A DNA stretch of 20,960 nt. It comes from a virus. Below are positions 3,112 through 15,864 of this stretch, piece by piece. Each line of letters begins with the position of its first letter. Within the stretch, counting starts at the first letter, position 1. The stretch spans positions 1-20,960 of IMG/VR virus record IMGVR_UViG_3300009165_000049. One strand, written 5' to 3'. Below the pieces are notes generated by a model, which saw only the letters and a program-made list of their open reading frames with translations, did no database searches and was not told where the DNA came from. Made by a program: the position numbers and the translations under genes.

Positions 3112-4535
3112 CCCCGGAGCAGGCGGTCGCCGCAGCGCGGGAGAACCCGGCGGCGTTTCTTGCCTTGTGCCTCGGAAAGCCCGTCTCCGACCTGCAACGC
3201 AGTCTGCTCGCGCACGGGTTGAAGCACCATAGTTGGTACGCGGAACTACCCCGAGGACACGCCAAGACCTCGACCCTCACCTACCTTGCCGCATGGTGGC
3301 TCGGTCGTCGCCCAGCAACGCGCTTTAAGCTCATCGGGCAGAACGACGAAGCCGCGTCGGCAACCTCTCGATTCCTGCGCGACATCATCCGCAGCCCCAT
3401 CTACCGCGCCACCTTCCCCCACGTTGAACTCAAGCCCGGGGAAGATACGGTCATGGCGTGGTCGATCACCGCGCCCGGGGTAGGGGCAAGGCGTGACCCG
3501 TCCGTCCAAGCCTCCGGCATCTTCGGGCGCACGGGCGGACGCGCCGACGTTCTTTGGCCGGATGACATTTGCGACCTACGCAACGCCGTCCTCCAACCGA
3601 CCCTCCGCGCACAGGTCAAGGAGGCGATGAACAACATCTGGCTCCCCATGCTTGACCCGTCCGCCAAGCACCCCGCCCGCATTTGGCGCACGGCGACCCC
3701 CTTCCATACGGACGACATTACCGCCGACTGGCGCAGGGAATGCGAACGCGCTGGCACGCTCCTACGCGAGCCTTGCCGGGGACTGATTAGCCCGTGGGCA
3801 AGCGTGTTCACGCCTGAGATCCTCGACCAGAAGCGCCGCGAGATGGGGCCGATGGCATACGCCCGCGCCTATGAACTCGTACCGCTGTCCTCCGACCTCC
3901 TGATCTTCCGACCGGAGTGGACGCGTTACTACCGCTCCGGCACGGTTCCCCTTGGTACGCGCACAGTTGCCGCTATCGACTGGGGCTACGGAAAGAAGCG
4001 CCAAGAGCGCGACGACCCCGACTACTCGGTCTGCATCGTGGGCGAGGTCGATCAAGCCCGCAACCTGTACCTCACCGACATCCTTCGCGTCCGCGAGTCG
4101 TTCCCCGACTTCGCCCGCATGGCGAAAGACCTCGTGGAGCGCCGAGGCGTGGGCATGGTTCTAGCCGAGGCGAACGGGCCGCAGAAGGGCGTGTTCGACC
4201 AATTCCGCCAAGACTGCCACCAGCCCGTCATTGCCGTCACCCGCACCGCCGACAAGCATTTACGAGCCGCCGCCGCCCAGCCGTTCGTTGAGCAGGGCAA
4301 GCTCCTGTTCCCGCAGAACCATGACGGGCAAGTTCACGCCGATTTCCGTTCCACCCTTGACGAAATGCTTGCCTTCCCCGCTGGCAGTCACGACGATACG
4401 GTGGACTGCATCGTTGACCTCTGCACCGCAGCGTCGAGCGGGACGGTAGTGACATCAGGCGGCGCGGTCACCGTGGCGACCGACACGAGCAGGATGTTTG
4501 ATTCTCGCGCAGTCAAGCGCAGAATGTTCGGTTGA
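3069..4535 (+). CDS. terL: Terminase large subunit (ATPase and nuclease)
   Basis: A 488-aa packaging motor. The N-terminal ATPase shows a Walker A-like loop PRGHAKTS (61-68), Walker B VLWPDDI (161-167; Asp165/166), and a coupling motif RTATPF (207-212). The C-terminal RNase H-like nuclease shows the acidic residues of AIDWGYG (Asp304), LAEANG (Glu367) and GSHDDTVD (Asp442/443). Length is normal for the family. The protein drives DNA into the prohead through the portal and cuts the concatemer. The start is a GTG at 3069, with poor ribosome site, overlapping the TerS-like gene by 43 bases; translation coupling is likely, and no ATG offers a better fit upstream of the ATPase core. The C-terminal segment (456-488) is a loose Ser/Thr/Gly tail with a basic end. 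Confidence 0.95.
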   Translation: MPSKAKAKTKAQSLTPEQAVAAARENPAAFLALCLGKPVSDLQRSLLAHGLKHHSWYAELPRGHAKTSTLTYLAAWWLGRRPATRFKLIGQNDEAASATSRFLRDIIRSPIYRATFPHVELKPGEDTVMAWSITAPGVGARRDPSVQASGIFGRTGGRADVLWPDDICDLRNAVLQPTLRAQVKEAMNNIWLPMLDPSAKHPARIWRTATPFHTDDITADWRRECERAGTLLREPCRGLISPWASVFTPEILDQKRREMGPMAYARAYELVPLSSDLLIFRPEWTRYYRSGTVPLGTRTVAAIDWGYGKKRQERDDPDYSVCIVGEVDQARNLYLTDILRVRESFPDFARMAKDLVERRGVGMVLAEANGPQKGVFDQFRQDCHQPVIAVTRTADKHLRAAAAQPFVEQGKLLFPQNHDGQVHADFRSTLDEMLAFPAGSHDDTVDCIVDLCTAASSGTVVTSGGAVTVATDTSRMFDSRAVKRRMFG

Positions 4536-4575
4536 ATCGGTACGATGCTTGCGGACTACTCAACAAAGGAACCAC

Positions 4576-6312
4576 ATGAGCAAGCAAGACATAGAGAAGC
4601 GTTTGGGATTCGCGGCGCAAGGCGTGAAATCCGAGTTTGGTTCTAACGATCCGTATATGCAAGAGCGCACGGTCAAAACCCGCAAGGGCAAGACTACTGA
4701 CCTCGTTGCGGAAATTGGGCAAAACGGTGGCGGTGGCGACTATATCGCTACTTTGATGCTTGTGCATTCAAACGGAGAACCACAGGTTTTGCAATCAAAG
4801 TACGGTTACAAAACTCCTGAAAGCGCAACGCGTGCGGCAATCCGTTTGTTTGATGCTCATGTTTCTCGCGGTGGCTACGCTCGCTCTGGCTCGAAAGCAA
4901 AGATGGCCGCCCCAAAAAAGAACGTAGGTTACCTAGCCGTTACTAATTCCGAATACGCCGCCTTGGCGGCTAGTGACGCAGCAGGCAAAAGGATTTCAAG
5001 TAACTCGCAGTATCAAATTACCAGCGAAGACCGCGCAATTATGGCAGCAGGTAAAGCAGCCGCGAAGTCCGCGCTGGCACGACACGACGCATGGGACAAG
5101 GCTTGGCGCAATGCGCCAAACGATGCCGCTCGCGCAAAGGTTGAAGCTGAAGCGGAAAAAGCCGAATCCGGAATGAAGAAATATCCAGTCACAAGACTTC
5201 ATTTTGCCCGCACCAGCGCGAAGGCGAAGTTTGCAAAGCCTCAGTTCCGCACGAAAAAACTGCACAACGGATATATAGCCGTAGAGGTAAATCAAGGGAA
5301 CGGCTGGGAGAGGTACGACACTACGCACGAAGAATCTTGGAACGGAATTGAAGAGTACGAACGCGGATACCAAAAGGCGTATGACCGAGGACTTCGATAC
5401 AGCGGAGGCTCATGGCGTATTCCTAGCACCAACGCCGCCCGCCCCGGCGTGAAAGCGAATATGGGGCTAGAAATGAATATGCTGGATTTTCGGCATAAGT
5501 TTTTCACCGCATTTGGCACGGCTATTCGGGATGCAAAGAGCAATCCCAACACGGCGGAAGCGCAGTCAGACGAAACCGTGCTTCGTGAGTCATGGGCTTC
5601 CATGTTCGCGCAGGGATACTCCGACGCAATCAGCGATCTGAACGGTTTATCGGCGACAATGAAGTCCAAGACTTCGGTTGGTCAGATGCGTAAGGCTGCT
5701 TCAGACGCGATGGAAGCTTACCGTCAGGCAAAGGCCGCCGTCCGCTCCTCCCGCCCCGGCGTGAAGGCTACGTTTGGTCTTCGGGTTCCTGAATTAGAAA
5801 CCCTGTATTCGTCGCTGGGCGCAAGTGGGCAAGCCATTACAGACAAGCCATCCGCAAGGAAAGACCGCGCCTTGTTGCTTAAATTGGATGCTGAGTATTC
5901 GCAACCAACCGACACGGTGATGGTGGCATTGAATGCCGCAAAACTTTACCGTCAACTTTCCGCAGGTTCAAAAGCAACCCCGCAGGGTCAAAAGTTTCAG
6001 CAAAGGCTAGAGATTGCAGGGGGTCATAGATTTGCCCGCCCCGGCGCGAAGGCGAAGATGGCGGCGGAAATCGCATCCGATCCAAGAGACAAAGACTTTG
6101 AGAAACTCAAGACCTTGAAGGGCGTGGTACATCAGGGCAAAGGGTTTTACATCATTCCCAATAAGCTGATGACCCCCGAACGCCGAACCAAGGTGAAGCG
6201 GTCAACACAACGCTACGAACTGTCCAACATGGGCGACCTTGTCGGCTGGGGAACCAATCACCCAAACGTAAACGACTACCGCTTGAAAGACTGGGCAGAG
6301 GCTTTCGCGTGA
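4576..6312 (+). CDS. Modular repeat protein with recurring RPG-KA linkers (unknown function)
   Basis: A 578-aa protein between terminase and portal. It begins MSKQDIEKRLGFAAQGVKSEF. The tag-like GFAAQGVKSEFG (11-22) recurs as a linker: YARSGSKAKMAA (101-112), FARTSAKAKFAK (210-221), AARPGVKANMGL (287-298), SSRPGVKATFGL (391-402), FARPGAKAKMAA (486-497). The linkers separate about six dissimilar modules of 65-100 residues: some beta-like (VAEIGQNGGGGDYIATLMLV; KLHNGYIAVEVNQGNGWERYDT), some helical (369-388). Start ATG 4576 has AAAGGA eight bases upstream; earlier in-frame starts lack one. The gene looks lower in GC than terL and portal. I do not recognise modules or linker. A packaged internal protein, polyprotein or virion decoration is possible; see findings. 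Its stop overlaps the next start (GTGA). Confidence 0.85.
   Translation: MSKQDIEKRLGFAAQGVKSEFGSNDPYMQERTVKTRKGKTTDLVAEIGQNGGGGDYIATLMLVHSNGEPQVLQSKYGYKTPESATRAAIRLFDAHVSRGGYARSGSKAKMAAPKKNVGYLAVTNSEYAALAASDAAGKRISSNSQYQITSEDRAIMAAGKAAAKSALARHDAWDKAWRNAPNDAARAKVEAEAEKAESGMKKYPVTRLHFARTSAKAKFAKPQFRTKKLHNGYIAVEVNQGNGWERYDTTHEESWNGIEEYERGYQKAYDRGLRYSGGSWRIPSTNAARPGVKANMGLEMNMLDFRHKFFTAFGTAIRDAKSNPNTAEAQSDETVLRESWASMFAQGYSDAISDLNGLSATMKSKTSVGQMRKAASDAMEAYRQAKAAVRSSRPGVKATFGLRVPELETLYSSLGASGQAITDKPSARKDRALLLKLDAEYSQPTDTVMVALNAAKLYRQLSAGSKATPQGQKFQQRLEIAGGHRFARPGAKAKMAAEIASDPRDKDFEKLKTLKGVVHQGKGFYIIPNKLMTPERRTKVKRSTQRYELSNMGDLVGWGTNHPNVNDYRLKDWAEAFA
5440..6046 (+). repeat. GC-rich DNA blocks encoding the RPG linkers (first locus)
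   Basis: The block CGCCCCGGCG occurs at 5440-5449, 5752-5761 and 6037-6046, each continuing with a closely similar YGAARGC segment and coding for R-P-G-[AV]-K-A. DNA between the blocks is unrelated and more AT-rich. Earlier linkers in the same gene have diverged at DNA level. Confidence 0.75.
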
Positions 6313-7121
6313 GCCAACGCAAGGACATCATGCGCCGACTAGGCATCTTCGCCCTGCCGACAAGCAAGCGCAAGCTGACCATCGACCAAGCCGAAGCGGC
6401 GCTCAAGCGCCTTGGGTATACGCTTGACTTCCGCAGCGGGCAGACCAACCCGCCAACGTGGCAAACCTCCTACGAGGTGAAGCAGCCGAACGGCGTTGTC
6501 AAGCGCATGACGGTAGACCAGATTAAAGCCCTGATGCAGCGGTCGAGGTTCGATAGCAACTGCGGCATTGGTAAGGGCGGGTTCAAACCCGGCAACACCT
6601 GCGGCGCTGAAAGCGGCGGCGGCGGTTCGTCATCGAAGCCAAGCGACACCGTGCGCGGCATTGAAGACCGCGCCAAGGCGGCTGGGAAGTCGTTCACGGA
6701 GCAATGGCTATCGGAAACGCGCTCGGACATTACCCGCCAGTACGACCAACGCGATGCGCGGGAGGCAAAGAAGGCGGCGGACACCATTCGCAAGAAGGAA
6801 GCCGAACTCGCTGAAGTGAAGCGACAAGGCCCACAGGCACGCGCTGGCGGGTTGCCTGAAAAGGCAAAGACCATCCGCGCCCTTGAAGGTCAACTCGACA
6901 AGGCAAAGCAGGACGTGGAAACCCTACGCAAGCAGCATGAAGCCGCTGCCAAGGCAAGCGAAGCCGCAATGCGTACTATGCGCGAGAAGCGTGCAGCGCA
7001 GAACACCCCAGAGGCTAAACGCGCTGCCGACATTGCACGCTCCAACAAACAAGCCCTCAGCATGGTGAATCGAGAGCGCAAGCAGCGCGGGCTTCCACCA
7101 CTCAACAAACTCCCGGACTAA
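6309..7121 (+). CDS. Tagged coiled-coil protein with a Cys-flanked GGFKPGNT motif
   Basis: A 270-aa protein starting at GTG 6309, overlapping the previous stop (GTGA). The N-terminus MSQRKDIMRRLGIFA resembles those of the two modular repeat proteins. Residues 22-78 form a small alpha/beta domain (TIDQAEAALKRLGYTLDF... YEVKQPNGVVKRMTVDQIKALM). Then NCGIGKGGFKPGNTCG (84-99), a motif with two cysteines I have the impression of seeing in other phage head-module proteins, and a Gly/Ser linker. Residues 145-260 are a long charged coiled coil rich in Ala, Lys, Arg, Glu. It may be a structural or DNA-associated head protein; function is not assignable. Directly upstream of the portal with a 6-base gap. 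Codon choice is closer to the core genes than that of its modular neighbour. Confidence 0.8.
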   Translation: MSQRKDIMRRLGIFALPTSKRKLTIDQAEAALKRLGYTLDFRSGQTNPPTWQTSYEVKQPNGVVKRMTVDQIKALMQRSRFDSNCGIGKGGFKPGNTCGAESGGGGSSSKPSDTVRGIEDRAKAAGKSFTEQWLSETRSDITRQYDQRDAREAKKAADTIRKKEAELAEVKRQGPQARAGGLPEKAKTIRALEGQLDKAKQDVETLRKQHEAAAKASEAAMRTMREKRAAQNTPEAKRAADIARSNKQALSMVNRERKQRGLPPLNKLPD

Positions 7122-9700: not shown

Positions 9701-9725
9701 ATAAATCGCAATGGAGATCGCTACG

Positions 9726-10724
9726 ATGCACGACATGAGCAAGGAGACATTTCTTCGGCCGGATCAACTGAAGCGCGGAGTCGAGATTGAGCTGACGCAG
9801 CGCCCAGAATGGGGAACGGCATTCATCCGTGGCCGGGTTCAAGGAAAACCCCAATTATGGGATGTCTCAAAGAGCATGGACAAGCGCGGCAGATTCATTG
9901 ACGAGGATGAGCTTCTACAACATTGGAGAACACCGAATATGAGCAACACACGCAAGGAAATTGCCGCCCGTCTTGGATTTGCTGCTGGCAACGGCGCGAA
10001 GATGGCGTTTGCCCCTCAAATTGACGAAGCTGAGCAAGAATTAAAGGCTTGGACAAAGAAGCTCGGGTATTACCCTGATATGGCAAAGGTCAATATCAGA
10101 CCTAATACCGTAATGCTTTGGTTTTACGACCAAAAAGGCAAGGCAACGCAATTAGCATCAAAGCTTCGCAGCGTTGCGGCAAGCATGAATCTTTCGCCAT
10201 CCGCAATTACTTCAGAAGAAGGACGACACCCAGCGTATGACGGCGGGGCTGCTCGGGATGTTGGACAGGTGACGGTTGATTACAACCGTAGTACGAAATC
10301 CTCCCGCCCCGGCGCGAAGGCAAAATTTGAAATTTCTTCATATGAGCAAGCGGAATATCAAATTGCATTAAGTGAAGAACGCATTGCGTCTTATCGCAAG
10401 GCACTTGCAAACACCGAAGCAATGATTAGAAACGCTAACAGTTTGATGCGTACCGCTGATTCAGGTGACAAGAAAGCAATGAAAGAAGTCATTGGCATTG
10501 CGCGAATGTTGGAATCAACAATGAAATCTCGCGGTTTCTCGCGCCCCGGCACAAAGACCAGCATGACCCGCGAGCAGACCGAGGAGCAGAAGGCAGGGCT
10601 GAAGATCATGTCCGCCGCTGACCCAGCCGTCGGCGAAAAAATAGCCACCCTCATCAAAGAAGGCAAGCCACAAGACCAAGCGGTCGCAATCGCGCTCGAC
10701 ATGAAGCGCAGAGGAGAGATCTGA
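9726..10724 (+). CDS. Second modular repeat protein with RPG linkers
   Basis: A 332-aa protein. Start ATG 9726 has GGAG (9713-9716) at good distance; ATG 9711 has none. Residues 1-71 are a small domain (LKRGVEIELTQRPEWGTAFI...). Residues 72-95 (MSNTRKEIAARLGFAAGNGA and on to KMAF) match the N-terminal tag of the gene at 4576. Linkers SSRPGAKAKF (192-201) and FSRPGTKTSM (271-280) separate further modules: a charged helical module (202-270) and a C-terminal one ending VGEKIATLIKEGKPQDQAVA with IALDMKRRGEI, a short phage motif (K.GKP..QAVAIAL, similar to the end of DUF6496-type proteins). Unknown function; same family logic as the 578-aa protein 4 kb upstream. It looks lower in GC than the core head genes. 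It ends one base into the next ATG (TGATG). Confidence 0.85.
   Translation: MHDMSKETFLRPDQLKRGVEIELTQRPEWGTAFIRGRVQGKPQLWDVSKSMDKRGRFIDEDELLQHWRTPNMSNTRKEIAARLGFAAGNGAKMAFAPQIDEAEQELKAWTKKLGYYPDMAKVNIRPNTVMLWFYDQKGKATQLASKLRSVAASMNLSPSAITSEEGRHPAYDGGAARDVGQVTVDYNRSTKSSRPGAKAKFEISSYEQAEYQIALSEERIASYRKALANTEAMIRNANSLMRTADSGDKKAMKEVIGIARMLESTMKSRGFSRPGTKTSMTREQTEEQKAGLKIMSAADPAVGEKIATLIKEGKPQDQAVAIALDMKRRGEI
9925..9941 (+). promoter_or_regulatory. Internal ribosome binding site and start within the modular gene
   Basis: GGAGAA (9925-9930) lies 8 bases before an in-frame ATG at 9939, which begins exactly at the tag MSNTRKEIAARLGFA. In the two other tagged genes this tag is the true N-terminus. 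A 261-aa product from here is plausible beside the 332-aa one. Confidence 0.5.
10305..10551 (+). repeat. GC-rich DNA blocks encoding the RPG linkers (second locus)
   Basis: CGCCCCGGCG at 10305-10314 and CGCCCCGGCA at 10542-10551 code for R-P-G linkers and match the blocks at 5440, 5752 and 6037. The first is followed by CGAAGGC, as at 6037. Confidence 0.7.
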
Positions 10725-11875: not shown

Positions 11876-12906
11876 TGAGGAATCGGCTTTCAAATGTCAT
11901 TCGGAGATTCCGTAGACCCGGATTAACGGGTGGAGGATATTTCTATGACTTATACGCGCCTAACACGGCTGCTTTGACGGTTTCGGACTATCAAGCAATT
12001 CAGCAACGCACCGCGCAAACGCTTGAATTCCGACGCACCATTGTCGAAAACAACCGGATGCAATACGCGTCGCCGGGATCTCGTGTTTCGTTCCAGACGA
12101 ACGCCGAAAGGCTACGGCTGAATCTGTACTGGAACGCTGAGGTTTACAACGTCATCAGCGGAAACGCCACATTTAATGGGGTGGGATCGGTTCTATCCAA
12201 TGGAACCGAGATCGGTACATTTGATTGGTCGCAGCCCCTTGTGAAGGGATATTCAACTCCGACCTATCCTCTTGCAACGGGAACCAAGACGGTCACGATT
12301 GTTTGGCCGTACAGCGCGGGACTTCAATTGCAATCGGTAGATTTGCAGCGCGGCGCAAGCCTAGTAGCAGCAACACGGCCAGCGAACAAGATTGGCATCT
12401 GTGGAGACAGCATTTCCCAAGGCTTTGAATCTAGCAAAATCACTACGACATGGGCTTATCTTCTCGGCAACACGCAGAGCAGACAGGTCATCAACTTGGC
12501 GAATGCGGGAGTGCCAGCAGACGCAAGCCATGCGACTGCGCTTACAGGAACAGGCTGCGACCGCGTGACCTATATGATCGGGTACAACGACTTTGCATCT
12601 CAAACGGCGCTAGTGACATTTCAGAACGCCGTTCAGGGCTGGATTACCAATGCGCGAGCGGCTTTGCCTTCTGCGCGGATATATGTGATCTCGACCATCT
12701 ACTCGCCAAACACAAATACAATCACGCTAGCGCAGTATCGAAGCGCGGTGCAAGCGGCTGAACTGGCGGCTGGTGACGCAAATACGTTCTACATTGATGG
12801 TTTGTCGATTATGACAAACAACACCAATCGACTAAGCGGAACGATTCATCCAAATGACCTTGGCGCGTCCGAAATTGCTACAAACTTGCAGCCATTAATT
12901 ACATGA
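11875..12906 (+). CDS. SGNH/GDSL-family esterase of the virion
   Basis: A 343-aa protein. The C-terminal domain (about 168-343) has SGNH blocks: ICGDSISQGFES with catalytic Ser179 (block I), a glycine in NLANAGVPAD (Gly212; block II), YMIGYNDF with Asn238 (block III), and GTIHPNDLG with His325 (block V). The usual Asp three residues before the His is Gly322 here, so the triad may be a Ser-His dyad or use another acid. Residues 40-165 form a beta-sandwich that probably binds substrate. SGNH enzymes on phages deacetylate or cleave ester bonds in host surface polysaccharide. ATG 11875 lies in the preceding stop (TAATG); no ribosome site is visible, so reinitiation is likely. GTG/TTG codons at 11863/11860 are alternatives. 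It ends with ATGA overlap to the protease gene. Confidence 0.8.
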   Translation: MRNRLSNVIRRFRRPGLTGGGYFYDLYAPNTAALTVSDYQAIQQRTAQTLEFRRTIVENNRMQYASPGSRVSFQTNAERLRLNLYWNAEVYNVISGNATFNGVGSVLSNGTEIGTFDWSQPLVKGYSTPTYPLATGTKTVTIVWPYSAGLQLQSVDLQRGASLVAATRPANKIGICGDSISQGFESSKITTTWAYLLGNTQSRQVINLANAGVPADASHATALTGTGCDRVTYMIGYNDFASQTALVTFQNAVQGWITNARAALPSARIYVISTIYSPNTNTITLAQYRSAVQAAELAAGDANTFYIDGLSIMTNNTNRLSGTIHPNDLGASEIATNLQPLIT

Positions 12907-14399
12907 GCAGCATTGATCTCAAACCAACCACCGAGATGGCATCCAATGCAACCCGTGGCCTTGAGCTGCGCGAGAAGCACGGCAGGGGTGGCACGGAGAT
13001 CGGCGTAGCGCGGGCGCGTGACATCAAGAACCGGGCGAACCTGTCACCCGAAACCGTGCGCCGCATGGTGTCCTACTTCGCTCGGCACGAGGTTGACAAG
13101 CAGGGCGAGGGCTGGGGCAAGGATTCCGCTGGGTATATCGCGTGGCTCCTGTGGGGCGGCGATGCTGGCAAGGCATGGGCAGAGCGCAAAGACAAGGAAC
13201 TCGACCGCAAGGAGGAGAAGACCGTGAACGCAAAGACATCTCACACAGTCGCCGAGGATGGCGACAAGGTAATGATTGAGCGCGTCGAACTGTTCATGGC
13301 GTTTGACCCAGCCATCGACGACGGCGAGGCTGACCCGGAACTCAAGCGTTTCAACAACAAGCGCCTCAAGGACATCGTTGCATCAACGCGCAAGCACATG
13401 GCTCGCGGCTCGTTCCCCCGCCTCGTCATCATGCACGAGAAGGACGGCAAGGAACCGAAGTCCGCTGTCGGTCGATTCCCCACAATTTCCTACGAAGAAC
13501 GCGATGGAATTGGGTACATTGTGGGCGACATGGAAGTCAACCGCGATATTTTCGACCGCTTCATTGCCACCAACGCCTTCCCGCGTCGGTCGGCTGAGAT
13601 CTGGTCAGGCTCAAACCATCTATCCGAGGTGGCGTTGCTCGGGCGTGAAACCCCGCGCCGTCCCCTCCCGGACACCCATTTCACCCGCAAGGGCGAGAAG
13701 ATCACTTGTTCAAAGTCCAACCATGACCTCGTCGGGGCTGGTGGCGGACTCAATACATTCATCCCGACGACTACCAAGGAGGAGGCCAGCATGGCATCCA
13801 GCGACGATATGCGCGAGGAGTTGGAGGCCATGAAGTGCGCCATCTCCGAACTCTCGGACATGATGAAGAAGAAGTTCGCAGACGACTCGGACGACAAGGA
13901 CGAGATGGCTGAGGACGACGATGAGATGAAGGACGAGATGGCCGAGGAAGACGGTCAAGTCCACATCGACATCGAGAGCCATGACGTTGAGGCAGGCGAA
14001 GACGAAGACGAGGCGGAGCCGGTGGTCGCTAGCCGATCCACCTACGCGCTTCGCTCTGAGAACGCCCGTCTCAAGTCCCGGTTCGCTCGGCTTGAAGCCG
14101 AGTTGAAGCGCGAGAAGTTTGAGCGCGAAGTGGAGATCATGGAGCAGGAGGGCTACCGCATCCCAGACTCACAGCGCGAGGCGCTTGTTGGTCAGTTGCA
14201 GGCTTCCCGCAACCCAGTTGCTCTCCTTGAGTCATGGCGCGACCTGTTCGCCCGCGACCCAATCGGAACCAAGATTGATATGAGCCGAGCAGCCCTGCCG
14301 CGTGGCATGGACATTGGTGACGTTGGCTCACTCGTCAAGCAATTTGCTGGCAAGCCTGAAGAGTTTGCCCGTGCAATCAACTCCCGAATGAAGGGATAA
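12903..14399 (+). CDS. Prohead protease-scaffold fusion protein
   Basis: A 498-aa protein with three parts. Residues 15-95 are a conserved phage domain (TRGLELREKHGRGGTEIGVA, NLSPETVRRMVSYFARHEVD, IAWLLWGGDAGKAWA). Residues 122-257 resemble assembly proteases of the herpesvirus-assemblin/Mu gpI kind: LVIMHEKDGK with candidate His178, VGRFPTI, FPRRSAEIWSG with candidate Ser230, and the closing HLSEVALLGRETPRRPLPD (239-257). Residues 297-498 are an acidic then coiled-coil scaffold (D/E-rich 326-372; helix 383-417). The junction has GGGLNTFIP (280-288), matching the capsid protein N-terminus. Such fusions template the prohead and are then proteolysed. ATG 12903 overlaps the esterase stop. Catalytic residue assignment is by pattern only. 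Confidence 0.8.
   Translation: MSSIDLKPTTEMASNATRGLELREKHGRGGTEIGVARARDIKNRANLSPETVRRMVSYFARHEVDKQGEGWGKDSAGYIAWLLWGGDAGKAWAERKDKELDRKEEKTVNAKTSHTVAEDGDKVMIERVELFMAFDPAIDDGEADPELKRFNNKRLKDIVASTRKHMARGSFPRLVIMHEKDGKEPKSAVGRFPTISYEERDGIGYIVGDMEVNRDIFDRFIATNAFPRRSAEIWSGSNHLSEVALLGRETPRRPLPDTHFTRKGEKITCSKSNHDLVGAGGGLNTFIPTTTKEEASMASSDDMREELEAMKCAISELSDMMKKKFADDSDDKDEMAEDDDEMKDEMAEEDGQVHIDIESHDVEAGEDEDEAEPVVASRSTYALRSENARLKSRFARLEAELKREKFEREVEIMEQEGYRIPDSQREALVGQLQASRNPVALLESWRDLFARDPIGTKIDMSRAALPRGMDIGDVGSLVKQFAGKPEEFARAINSRMKG
13791..14399 (+). CDS. Nested free scaffold protein from an internal start
   Basis: AAGGAGGAGG (13776-13785), a near-perfect ribosome binding site, precedes an in-frame ATG at 13791 (residue 297 of the fusion). 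It would make a 202-aa protein (MASSDDMREELEAMKCAISE...) consisting only of the scaffold part. The layout matches lambda C/Nu3 and herpesvirus UL26/UL26.5, where the scaffold is made in excess from within the protease gene. The acidic segment and coiled coil support the scaffold role. That it is expressed is inferred. Confidence 0.7.
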   Translation: MASSDDMREELEAMKCAISELSDMMKKKFADDSDDKDEMAEDDDEMKDEMAEEDGQVHIDIESHDVEAGEDEDEAEPVVASRSTYALRSENARLKSRFARLEAELKREKFEREVEIMEQEGYRIPDSQREALVGQLQASRNPVALLESWRDLFARDPIGTKIDMSRAALPRGMDIGDVGSLVKQFAGKPEEFARAINSRMKG

Positions 14400-14411
14400 A
14401 AGGAAACAACA

Positions 14412-14801
14412 ATGCTTCAATTCTCTCCAAATCTCATTGCTACCGCTGACATCAACCCCTATGCCATCGTCAAGATGTCAACGACCGCGTTCTCAGGTTC
14501 TGCCTCCACGGCAGCGGCTGACTACGTTGTCGGCGTTGCTGACGGCTCAACAAGCCGATTCAATACCACCGTTCACGCAGCAGCAGGCGACCCAATCAGT
14601 CTCCAGCCGTCTAACTGCGTCCAATTGAAGTGCGGCGCATCGGTCGCTATTACTGCGGGTCTTGGCTTGATCGCCGGGACTGCGGGCGTAGCGATTACTG
14701 CGGCTGGTAGCGGCAATGTTCCGCTGTTCGTGGCTCTTGAGCCAGCAGCGGTTGATTCCATCTTCTGGGCATACCGCCTGCCCTCCGTCAAGGCTCTGTA
14801 A
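14412..14801 (+). CDS. Head decoration/stabilisation-like protein
   Basis: A 129-aa protein just before the capsid gene. It has the light, Ala/Gly/Val-rich beta pattern of capsid decoration proteins of DUF2190 type: ADINPYAIVKM, AADYVVGVADGSTS, AAGDPISLQPSNCVQLKCGA and GNVPLFVALEPAA. In these the order is V-G-V-A...A-A-G-D...G...A-L-E. They bind the capsid outside at local symmetry axes. No tail or enzyme features are present. AAAGGAAA gives a good ribosome site before ATG 14412. A 25-base gap with AT-rich TAATTAATTAT separates it from the capsid gene. Confidence 0.65.
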   Translation: MLQFSPNLIATADINPYAIVKMSTTAFSGSASTAAADYVVGVADGSTSRFNTTVHAAAGDPISLQPSNCVQLKCGASVAITAGLGLIAGTAGVAITAAGSGNVPLFVALEPAAVDSIFWAYRLPSVKAL

Positions 14802-14811
14802 TTAATTATCG

Positions 14812-14820
14812 AAAGGAGGT
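14812..14820 (+). promoter_or_regulatory. Consensus ribosome binding site of the capsid gene
   Basis: AAAGGAGGT, fully complementary to the bacterial 16S 3' end, six bases before ATG 14827. It is among the strongest sites in the window, as expected for the most abundant virion protein. Confidence 0.9.
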
Positions 14821-14826
14821 CATCAA

Positions 14827-15864
14827 ATGGCCTATGTGACAGTCGGAGGCGGTCTAAACACTTACGTCCCCTCCACCAACGCGCTTGCAACCGGCGCTCT
14901 TCAGGTTGAGTTCACCCGTGCGGTGAATTCGTTTGCCATCACCCGTTACGCCCAAATCGTCGCCTGCAATCAAATGACGGGGTACTACCTCCGTCTTGAT
15001 TCGGACGACAACGTCCGCGTCTCAAACGAAAACGAATTTATCTGGCCTCTTGGCAACGACCGCCCGGTCGGCAAGATGAACCAGCACGACTTCGTTACGT
15101 TCACCGCGCAGCGTTACGCGTTCCCGTTCTACATCCCAAACGAAACCGTCAAGCAAGCCGCGTGGGACATCGTTGCCCAGCACGCTCGCAGTAAGGCGCA
15201 GCTCGCTATGACCGCTCGCTCCATGCGAACGGCTACCGCGCTGACCAACTCCACAGCTGTGGCCGCATTCACCTTAGCGGGCAACTATCAGGCTCTTGGT
15301 AGTACTTGGAAGGGCGTTTGGACGGCTTCGTCCACTAACGTCATTCAGGCAAGCATCCAAGACGCGCTCCAGCGCATCTCGCTTGCTACTGGTGGCGCGG
15401 TTCGTAGTGAAGACATTTGCATGGTCATTAGTCCGACCGTTGCAAATATCATCTCACAGGCGGACGAAATCCGTAACTATGTGAAGAACTACCCAGCGGC
15501 CTTGCCGTTCCTTCAGGGTTCGGACATCTTCTCCCGTTACGGCCTCCCGCCGAATCTGTTCGGCGTTTCGGTTGTCGTTGACGACTCGGTCAAGGTGACA
15601 AGTCGCAAGAACAACGCAGTTGCAGGTACTCGTTCGTTCGTGTACGGCAACTCGGCAATCTTCGTGAGCCGCCCCGGTGGCTTGGTTGGTGTCGAAGGTT
15701 CGACCTCGTTTAGCACCTGCCAGATCTTCGCCTTTGAAGATATGACGGTCGAGAACTGGGACGATCCGAAGGATCGCCGTATTGAAGGTCGCGTCATTGA
15801 CACAAGCACCTCGGAATTGGTTTCCCCAATCTCTGGGTTCCTGTGCGCCAACGTCACGGGCTAA
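14827..15864 (+). CDS. Major capsid protein
   Basis: A 345-aa protein in the expected place after scaffold and decoration genes, with a consensus ribosome site. Features consistent with a HK97-like capsid protein: FTRAVNSFAITRYAQIVACN (29-48), EFIWPLGNDRPVGKMNQHDF (70-89), RYAFPFYIPNETVKQAAWDI (96-115), a helical AMTARSMRTAT, and a C-terminal domain with FGVSVVVDDSVKV and FAFEDMTVENWDDPKDRRIE, as in unusual capsid proteins of several environmental phages. Residues 7-17 are GGGLNTYVPST, repeated almost exactly at the protease/scaffold junction. The protein has no long delta-domain before it, so separate scaffold is needed, agreeing with the upstream gene. Followed by a strong hairpin. Confidence 0.85.
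   Translation: MAYVTVGGGLNTYVPSTNALATGALQVEFTRAVNSFAITRYAQIVACNQMTGYYLRLDSDDNVRVSNENEFIWPLGNDRPVGKMNQHDFVTFTAQRYAFPFYIPNETVKQAAWDIVAQHARSKAQLAMTARSMRTATALTNSTAVAAFTLAGNYQALGSTWKGVWTASSTNVIQASIQDALQRISLATGGAVRSEDICMVISPTVANIISQADEIRNYVKNYPAALPFLQGSDIFSRYGLPPNLFGVSVVVDDSVKVTSRKNNAVAGTRSFVYGNSAIFVSRPGGLVGVEGSTSFSTCQIFAFEDMTVENWDDPKDRRIEGRVIDTSTSELVSPISGFLCANVTG

Follow-up and report, generated by a model that had tools for sequence, protein, structure and literature searches.

A nine-residue motif shared by a protease-scaffold fusion and the major capsid protein of an uncultured tailed-phage family, probably read by one partner during head assembly

Introduction

Why would two head proteins of one phage, a protease-scaffold fusion and the major capsid protein, carry nearly the same eleven residues? 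The question arises from a 20,960-base virus record (IMG/VR IMGVR_UViG_3300009165_000049, positions 1 to 20,960; hereafter the window), and it touches on a process understood for few phages, namely how a prohead protease enters the shell and which sites it cuts once there. A sequence-only reading of the window had pointed out the two strings and proposed a shared recognition or cleavage site, or a shared docking motif. Here we analyze the pair in the window and its relatives.

Results

Two copies of one motif in a Mu-like head module

The window holds a Mu-like head module comprising terminase, portal, Mu F-like protein, the fusion, a cement-like protein and the capsid protein, with neck and tail genes downstream of the capsid gene (Table 1). 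The two strings and their residue numbers, as originally reported, are exact; of the span given for the pair, 13742-14877, the end is right, whereas copy 1 begins 2 nt earlier, at 13740. Eight of the 11 residues are identical between the copies, which makes this the best 11-mer match between the fusion and capsid proteins. We found no third copy in the window, and neither the portal nor the cement-like protein encoded between the two motif genes carries one.

Table 1. Coordinates of the fusion, cement-like and capsid features in the window
Feature	Position	Strand	Basis
Whole fusion gene (N-terminal module, protease and scaffold)	12903-14399
N-terminal module of fusion, residues 1-107	12903..13223	+	phrog_2859-like; PHROG 8e-16 over residues 3-114
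Prohead-type serine protease domain and linker	13224..13739	+	invariant His178, Ser230, His239; AF2 core; Foldseek
Motif copy 1, GGGLNTFIPTT, fusion residues 280-290	13740..13772	+	sequence and relatives
SD-like AAGGAGGAGG ahead of internal scaffold start	13776..13785	+	sequence; relatives
Predicted internal scaffold from Met297	13791..14399	+	acidic middle; conserved C-terminal FAGKPEEFARAI
Decoration/cement-like protein between both motif genes	14412..14801	+	Pfam Phage_cement_2 0.0043 (below Pfam cut-off); PHROG 673 1.1e-6
Major capsid protein, HK97 fold	14827..15864	+	AF2 model and Foldseek
Motif copy 2, GGGLNTYVPST, capsid residues 7-17, flexible N-arm	14845..14877	+	residues 1-35 pLDDT <50

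At the DNA level, the two copies differ in 11 of 33 bases (67% identity, counted by eye), mainly at third positions, which argues against a recent duplication, and we rejected this origin. Among relatives, several or even all of the synonymous third bases are in use at the motif codons of either gene (73 and 89 distinct contexts). Because silent changes occur throughout, selection acts on the protein, and the earlier proposal that the likeness is kept at the protein level despite codon differences is borne out in both genes and in all four clades described below. The same silent changes led us to reject a DNA or RNA element as the cause. A ribosome site was likewise rejected as the cause of copy 1, since the ribosome site lies downstream of the motif.

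Other recurrent motifs occur elsewhere in the window. Three accessory proteins (4498-6312, 6309-7121 and 9711-10724) have a common N-terminal motif around RLG[FI] (MSKQDIEKRLGFAA, MSQRKDIMRRLGIFA and MSNTRKEIAARLGFAA), and in two of them linkers matching [FSA][AS]R[PST][GS][AV]KAK[MF] recur, at nucleotides 4882, 5209, 5440, 5752, 6037, 10305 and 10542; the stricter RPG form of this linker was found in 130 of the collected loci. The RLG[FI] motif and the KAK linkers may act, between small domains, as tags for packaging or processing.

Copy 1 lies between a protease-like domain and a nested scaffold

His178, Ser230 and His239 of the fusion correspond to invariant columns (H66, S118 and H127) among 37 diverse relatives and are, on the strength of this conservation, candidate catalytic residues. 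In the AF2 model, which like that of the capsid protein is a monomer computed from a shallow alignment (16 and 37 rows for the two), the protease core has a pLDDT of about 70-95 and is followed by a low-confidence tail, beginning at residue 142 of the modelled segment, that includes the motif. The tail bearing copy 1 is thus apparently disordered and accessible. A Foldseek search against predicted viral proteins returned annotated prohead proteases and scaffolds at moderate E-values (~5e-4 to 2e-3), while the PDB yielded no match at E <= 0.001 and Pfam no protease match; sequence profiles of the protease and the capsid protein also found nothing in the PDB. We therefore base the label of prohead-type protease on the three invariant residues, the position of the gene and the moderate fold similarity.

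Behind the motif, an in-frame ATG follows within 5-11 codons in 72 of 72 distinct contexts, which places copy 1 directly before an internal scaffold start, and in 65 of the 72 the first such ATG is preceded by an SD-like string. A free scaffold is accordingly predicted to be made from the internal ribosome site and the Met297 start. Since this start lies downstream of the motif, the free scaffold would lack it and only the protease form would carry it. None of the relatives' contexts examined had a stop codon between motif and scaffold that would split the gene.

A second nested start appears further upstream in the fusion gene, with SD-like AAGGAGGAG at 13209-13217 ahead of a GTG at codon 108. 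Several relatives match the fusion only from residue 108 or 112, the N-terminal module being absent from their protease ORF. Together, the SD-like string with its GTG and these shorter relatives suggest that a protease form lacking the N-terminal module is produced as well, and the gene may encode three products, namely the full fusion, a protease-scaffold and the scaffold. The module itself (phrog_2859, ~105 residues) occurs in many unrelated phages, including those of Roseobacter, Vibrio and Synechococcus.

For the capsid protein, the AF2 model has a mean pLDDT of 64, with residues 1-35, and hence copy 2, below 50. Its Foldseek matches, among them 3bjq (E 2.6e-8) and the DT57C and T5 capsids, fall in the range of E 1e-8 to 1e-7, and by this model the major capsid protein has the HK97 fold.

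The pair is conserved in four clades and confined to two proteins

Querying viral contigs with either protein provided the best 80 of 113 and the best 80 of at least 595 confirmed loci, and alignment-based and clade-specific searches contributed further ones. Loci overlap between searches, so that locus counts are not counts of independent phages; the independent set consists of 77 non-redundant representatives sharing <97% identity over both cores. All 77 carry both copies, counting the shortened form of clade IV, as do nearly all fetched loci with both genes, even where the protease is ~40% identical. A tree of both proteins, computed with the motif removed, resolved four supported clades with 34 (I, including the window), 15 (II), 9 (III) and 19 (IV) members (Table 2).

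Table 2. Commonest form of the two motif copies in each clade
Clade	Protease copy	Capsid copy
I	GGGLNTF[IV]P	GGGLNT[FY]VPST
II	GGGLNTF[IV]P	GGGLNTF[IV]PTFS
III	GGG[LIQ]ST[FY]VP	GGG[LNQ]S[TPA][FY][IV]PST
IV	PG[VA]GNVF[IV]P	GGGL[NS]TF[IV]PTFS

In most clades the consensus is about G-x-G-x-[NS]-x-[FY]-[IV]-P, nine residues long. Three glycines are invariant in the capsid copy, and in the protease copy the position after the proline is unconstrained, occupied by T, A, S, G, D, N or E. Across clades, copy 1 forms an island of conservation within a linker variable in length and sequence, whereas in the capsid N-arm conservation runs unbroken from the motif on to EFTR. The protease copy of clade IV has drifted to PGVGNVFVPG, while its capsid copy still reads GGGL[NS]TFVP. 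Most clade IV proteases (L112, L208, L213-L241) also have a C-x-x-C pair in the linker directly before the motif form, for example CSSCFEAAPGVGNVFVPG. In clade II, adjacent head-region proteins of six loci (L107, L121, L122, L125, L126 and L127) share a different motif, similar to [KT][VIT]ED[RK]FYFGK, which is N-terminal in some proteins and internal in others.

A gene-blind scan for the motif as a DNA pattern mostly returned contigs with exactly two matches ~1.1-1.2 kb apart. Across 385 viral loci, 617 regex matches were distributed over the capsid protein (317), the protease (297) and other places (3, one of them a protease fragment), as sorted by protease and capsid profiles trained on the same phage family; exactly one copy in each of the two proteins was found in 269 loci. 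A scan of genome contigs yielded two loci, both with the motif pair or its clade IV form, and because one comes from an actinobacterial and the other from a Nitrospiraceae bin, no clear host emerges. When the window, clade II and clade IV versions of the capsid protein and the protease were compared by tblastn with 50,697 phage records, the N-terminal module was all that matched. Among other protein pairs in loci with that module, a search for shared 9-mers found no such protease/capsid pairing in unrelated head gene sets, and a literature search for GGGLNT found no paper.

These distributions bear on whether two unrelated conserved stretches resemble each other by chance, or are what an old duplication left behind, with no shared function. 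Conservation of the capsid N-arm extends past the motif in any case, and for the window pair alone, shuffling both proteins produced a best 11-mer with 8 matches in 4 of 2000 trials, which leaves such a reading some room. However, the likeness is kept in four clades, with serine replacing asparagine in both copies on one branch, copy 1 stands out from its variable surroundings, and a duplication relic would not stay at the protein level with silent codon changes. We therefore disfavour chance or a relic and consider either improbable.

Co-variation of the two copies amounts to one joint event

Looking for co-variation across relatives, as had been suggested at the outset, gave a weak signal. 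In clade III, serine takes the place of asparagine in both copies of all nine representatives, and a clade III search found it in both copies of 40 of 40 two-copy loci, some on contigs already counted. On the tree, this site changes once in the protease and six times in the capsid protein; the I/V position changes ten times in each copy, and of 9 independent pairs ~3 show a joint shift. Elsewhere there were several changes in the capsid copy alone (clade IV and loci L245, L297 and L377), and the clade IV protease copy changed without a matching capsid change. Judged from these sequences, tree-aware co-variation comprises one joint event, with too few independent changes to choose between cleavage and docking, and should be read as under-powered rather than negative.

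Discussion

With the pair, its conservation, exclusivity and placement, and the capsid fold class established, we conclude that both proteins probably carry a tag recognized by a common partner during head assembly. The sequence-only reading had named the right class of explanation, as the pair is specific to the two proteins and maintained at the protein level in four clades, and copy 1 lies in a variable disordered linker.

We propose that the motif is a short linear motif read by one partner in both proteins during head assembly, the most likely partner being the prohead protease that the phage itself encodes. Copy 1 would mark where this protease frees itself from the scaffold, and copy 2 would be a trimming site at which roughly 9-17 residues would be taken off the capsid N-terminus. 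We put the chance of such a processing site just short of even and slightly prefer it to a docking peptide; a host protease, chance and other causes share the remainder. Activity of the protease, cleavage at the motif and the bond that would be cut are points we infer. Both copies lie where characterized prohead proteases cut, in a disordered accessible tail and a disordered N-arm, respectively, and the head module shows no protease other than the one bearing the motif. A cut at copy 1, 5-11 residues before the scaffold start, would release a scaffold almost identical to the one that internal initiation would produce, and the joint Asn/Ser difference of clade III would fit a shift in specificity.

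The closest layout is that of phage P2, where gpO, an N-terminal protease fused to a C-terminal scaffold, cleaves itself and trims the capsid protein gpN between residues 31 and 32 (PMC7552001). In the accessible part of that account, a shared nine-residue motif is not described; the P2 capsid protein loses 31 residues, as compared to at most about 17 here, and the window fusion, unlike P2, has its own scaffold start. Self-cleavage and cleavage of head proteins at one motif, as proposed here, is also found for T4-type prohead proteases and for gp245 of SPN3US, which cleaves nine head proteins, itself included (PMC10052503). The motif of the window differs in being long and confined to two proteins, whereas the SPN3US and T4-type motifs occur in many head proteins.

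Several observations argue against cleavage. Prohead proteases usually read few residues, and the SPN3US and T4-type motifs are short, whereas nine residues are constrained here. The position after the proline is unconstrained in the protease copy, and conservation of the capsid N-arm continues without a break beyond the motif, as if the arm were retained. The portal is without a copy, and clade IV combines a drifting protease copy with a stable capsid copy. Weak evidence in the same direction is that AF2 does not put the protease tail into the active site. In the Mu-like phage JBD30, moreover, residues 6-25 of the capsid N-arm are retained and hook over the neighbour's spine helix (PMC11445458).

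The retained JBD30 arm also supports the alternative that the motif is a docking peptide, which anchors the capsid N-arm in a groove of a neighbouring subunit or of the scaffold and is mimicked by the protease tail. The protease would thereby be tethered inside the growing shell, with any cutting done elsewhere. Length, hydrophobic anchors ([FY] and [IV]) and a proline behind flexible glycines at the end of a disordered tail fit an anchor of this kind, as do the three invariant capsid glycines, the free residue after the proline, the conserved run to EFTR and the presence of the motif on the protease product but not on the free scaffold. Nevertheless, the partner groove is putative, and docking gives no particular reason to expect a copy at the border of protease and scaffold; we regard docking as a real possibility at clearly less than an even chance. 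As far as the accessible part of the source goes, encapsulins load cargo via short terminal peptides that tether an enzyme to an HK97-fold shell, the peptide being on the cargo and a copy on the shell protein not described (PMC11190991); tethering in the present case is a proposal.

Phage 80alpha is, by analogy, instructive for both cleavage and docking. A short N-terminal sequence common to its capsid and scaffold proteins is cut 13-14 residues in, a precedent for motif-guided short trimming, yet cutting is dispensable while the shared sequence of the scaffold is required for assembly (PMC5744158). The cut is made at F|A, in another motif, by the host protease Prp, and the scaffold is described without an attached protease (PMC5744158). 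Although this similar layout might suggest that a host protease reads both copies here as well, the motif reads ...[FY][IV]P and lacks the F-A junction of Prp sites, and the phage has its own protease-like protein on the spot; we consider a host enzyme very improbable.

Whichever way it is read, a wide family of uncultured tailed phages advertises a strong candidate for the entry or cut sites of its prohead protease, one nine-residue motif in exactly two proteins. A specific form of docking, which we deem somewhat unlikely, is that the protease bears a copy of the shell protein's N-arm anchor, docks inside the procapsid and loses its grip as the arm moves on expansion. If true, docking via the shell's own anchor would be the phage parallel to cargo loading by encapsulins, with the difference that the shell would carry the peptide too. 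The motif also supplies a DNA signature by which head genes of this family can be located in unannotated sequence.
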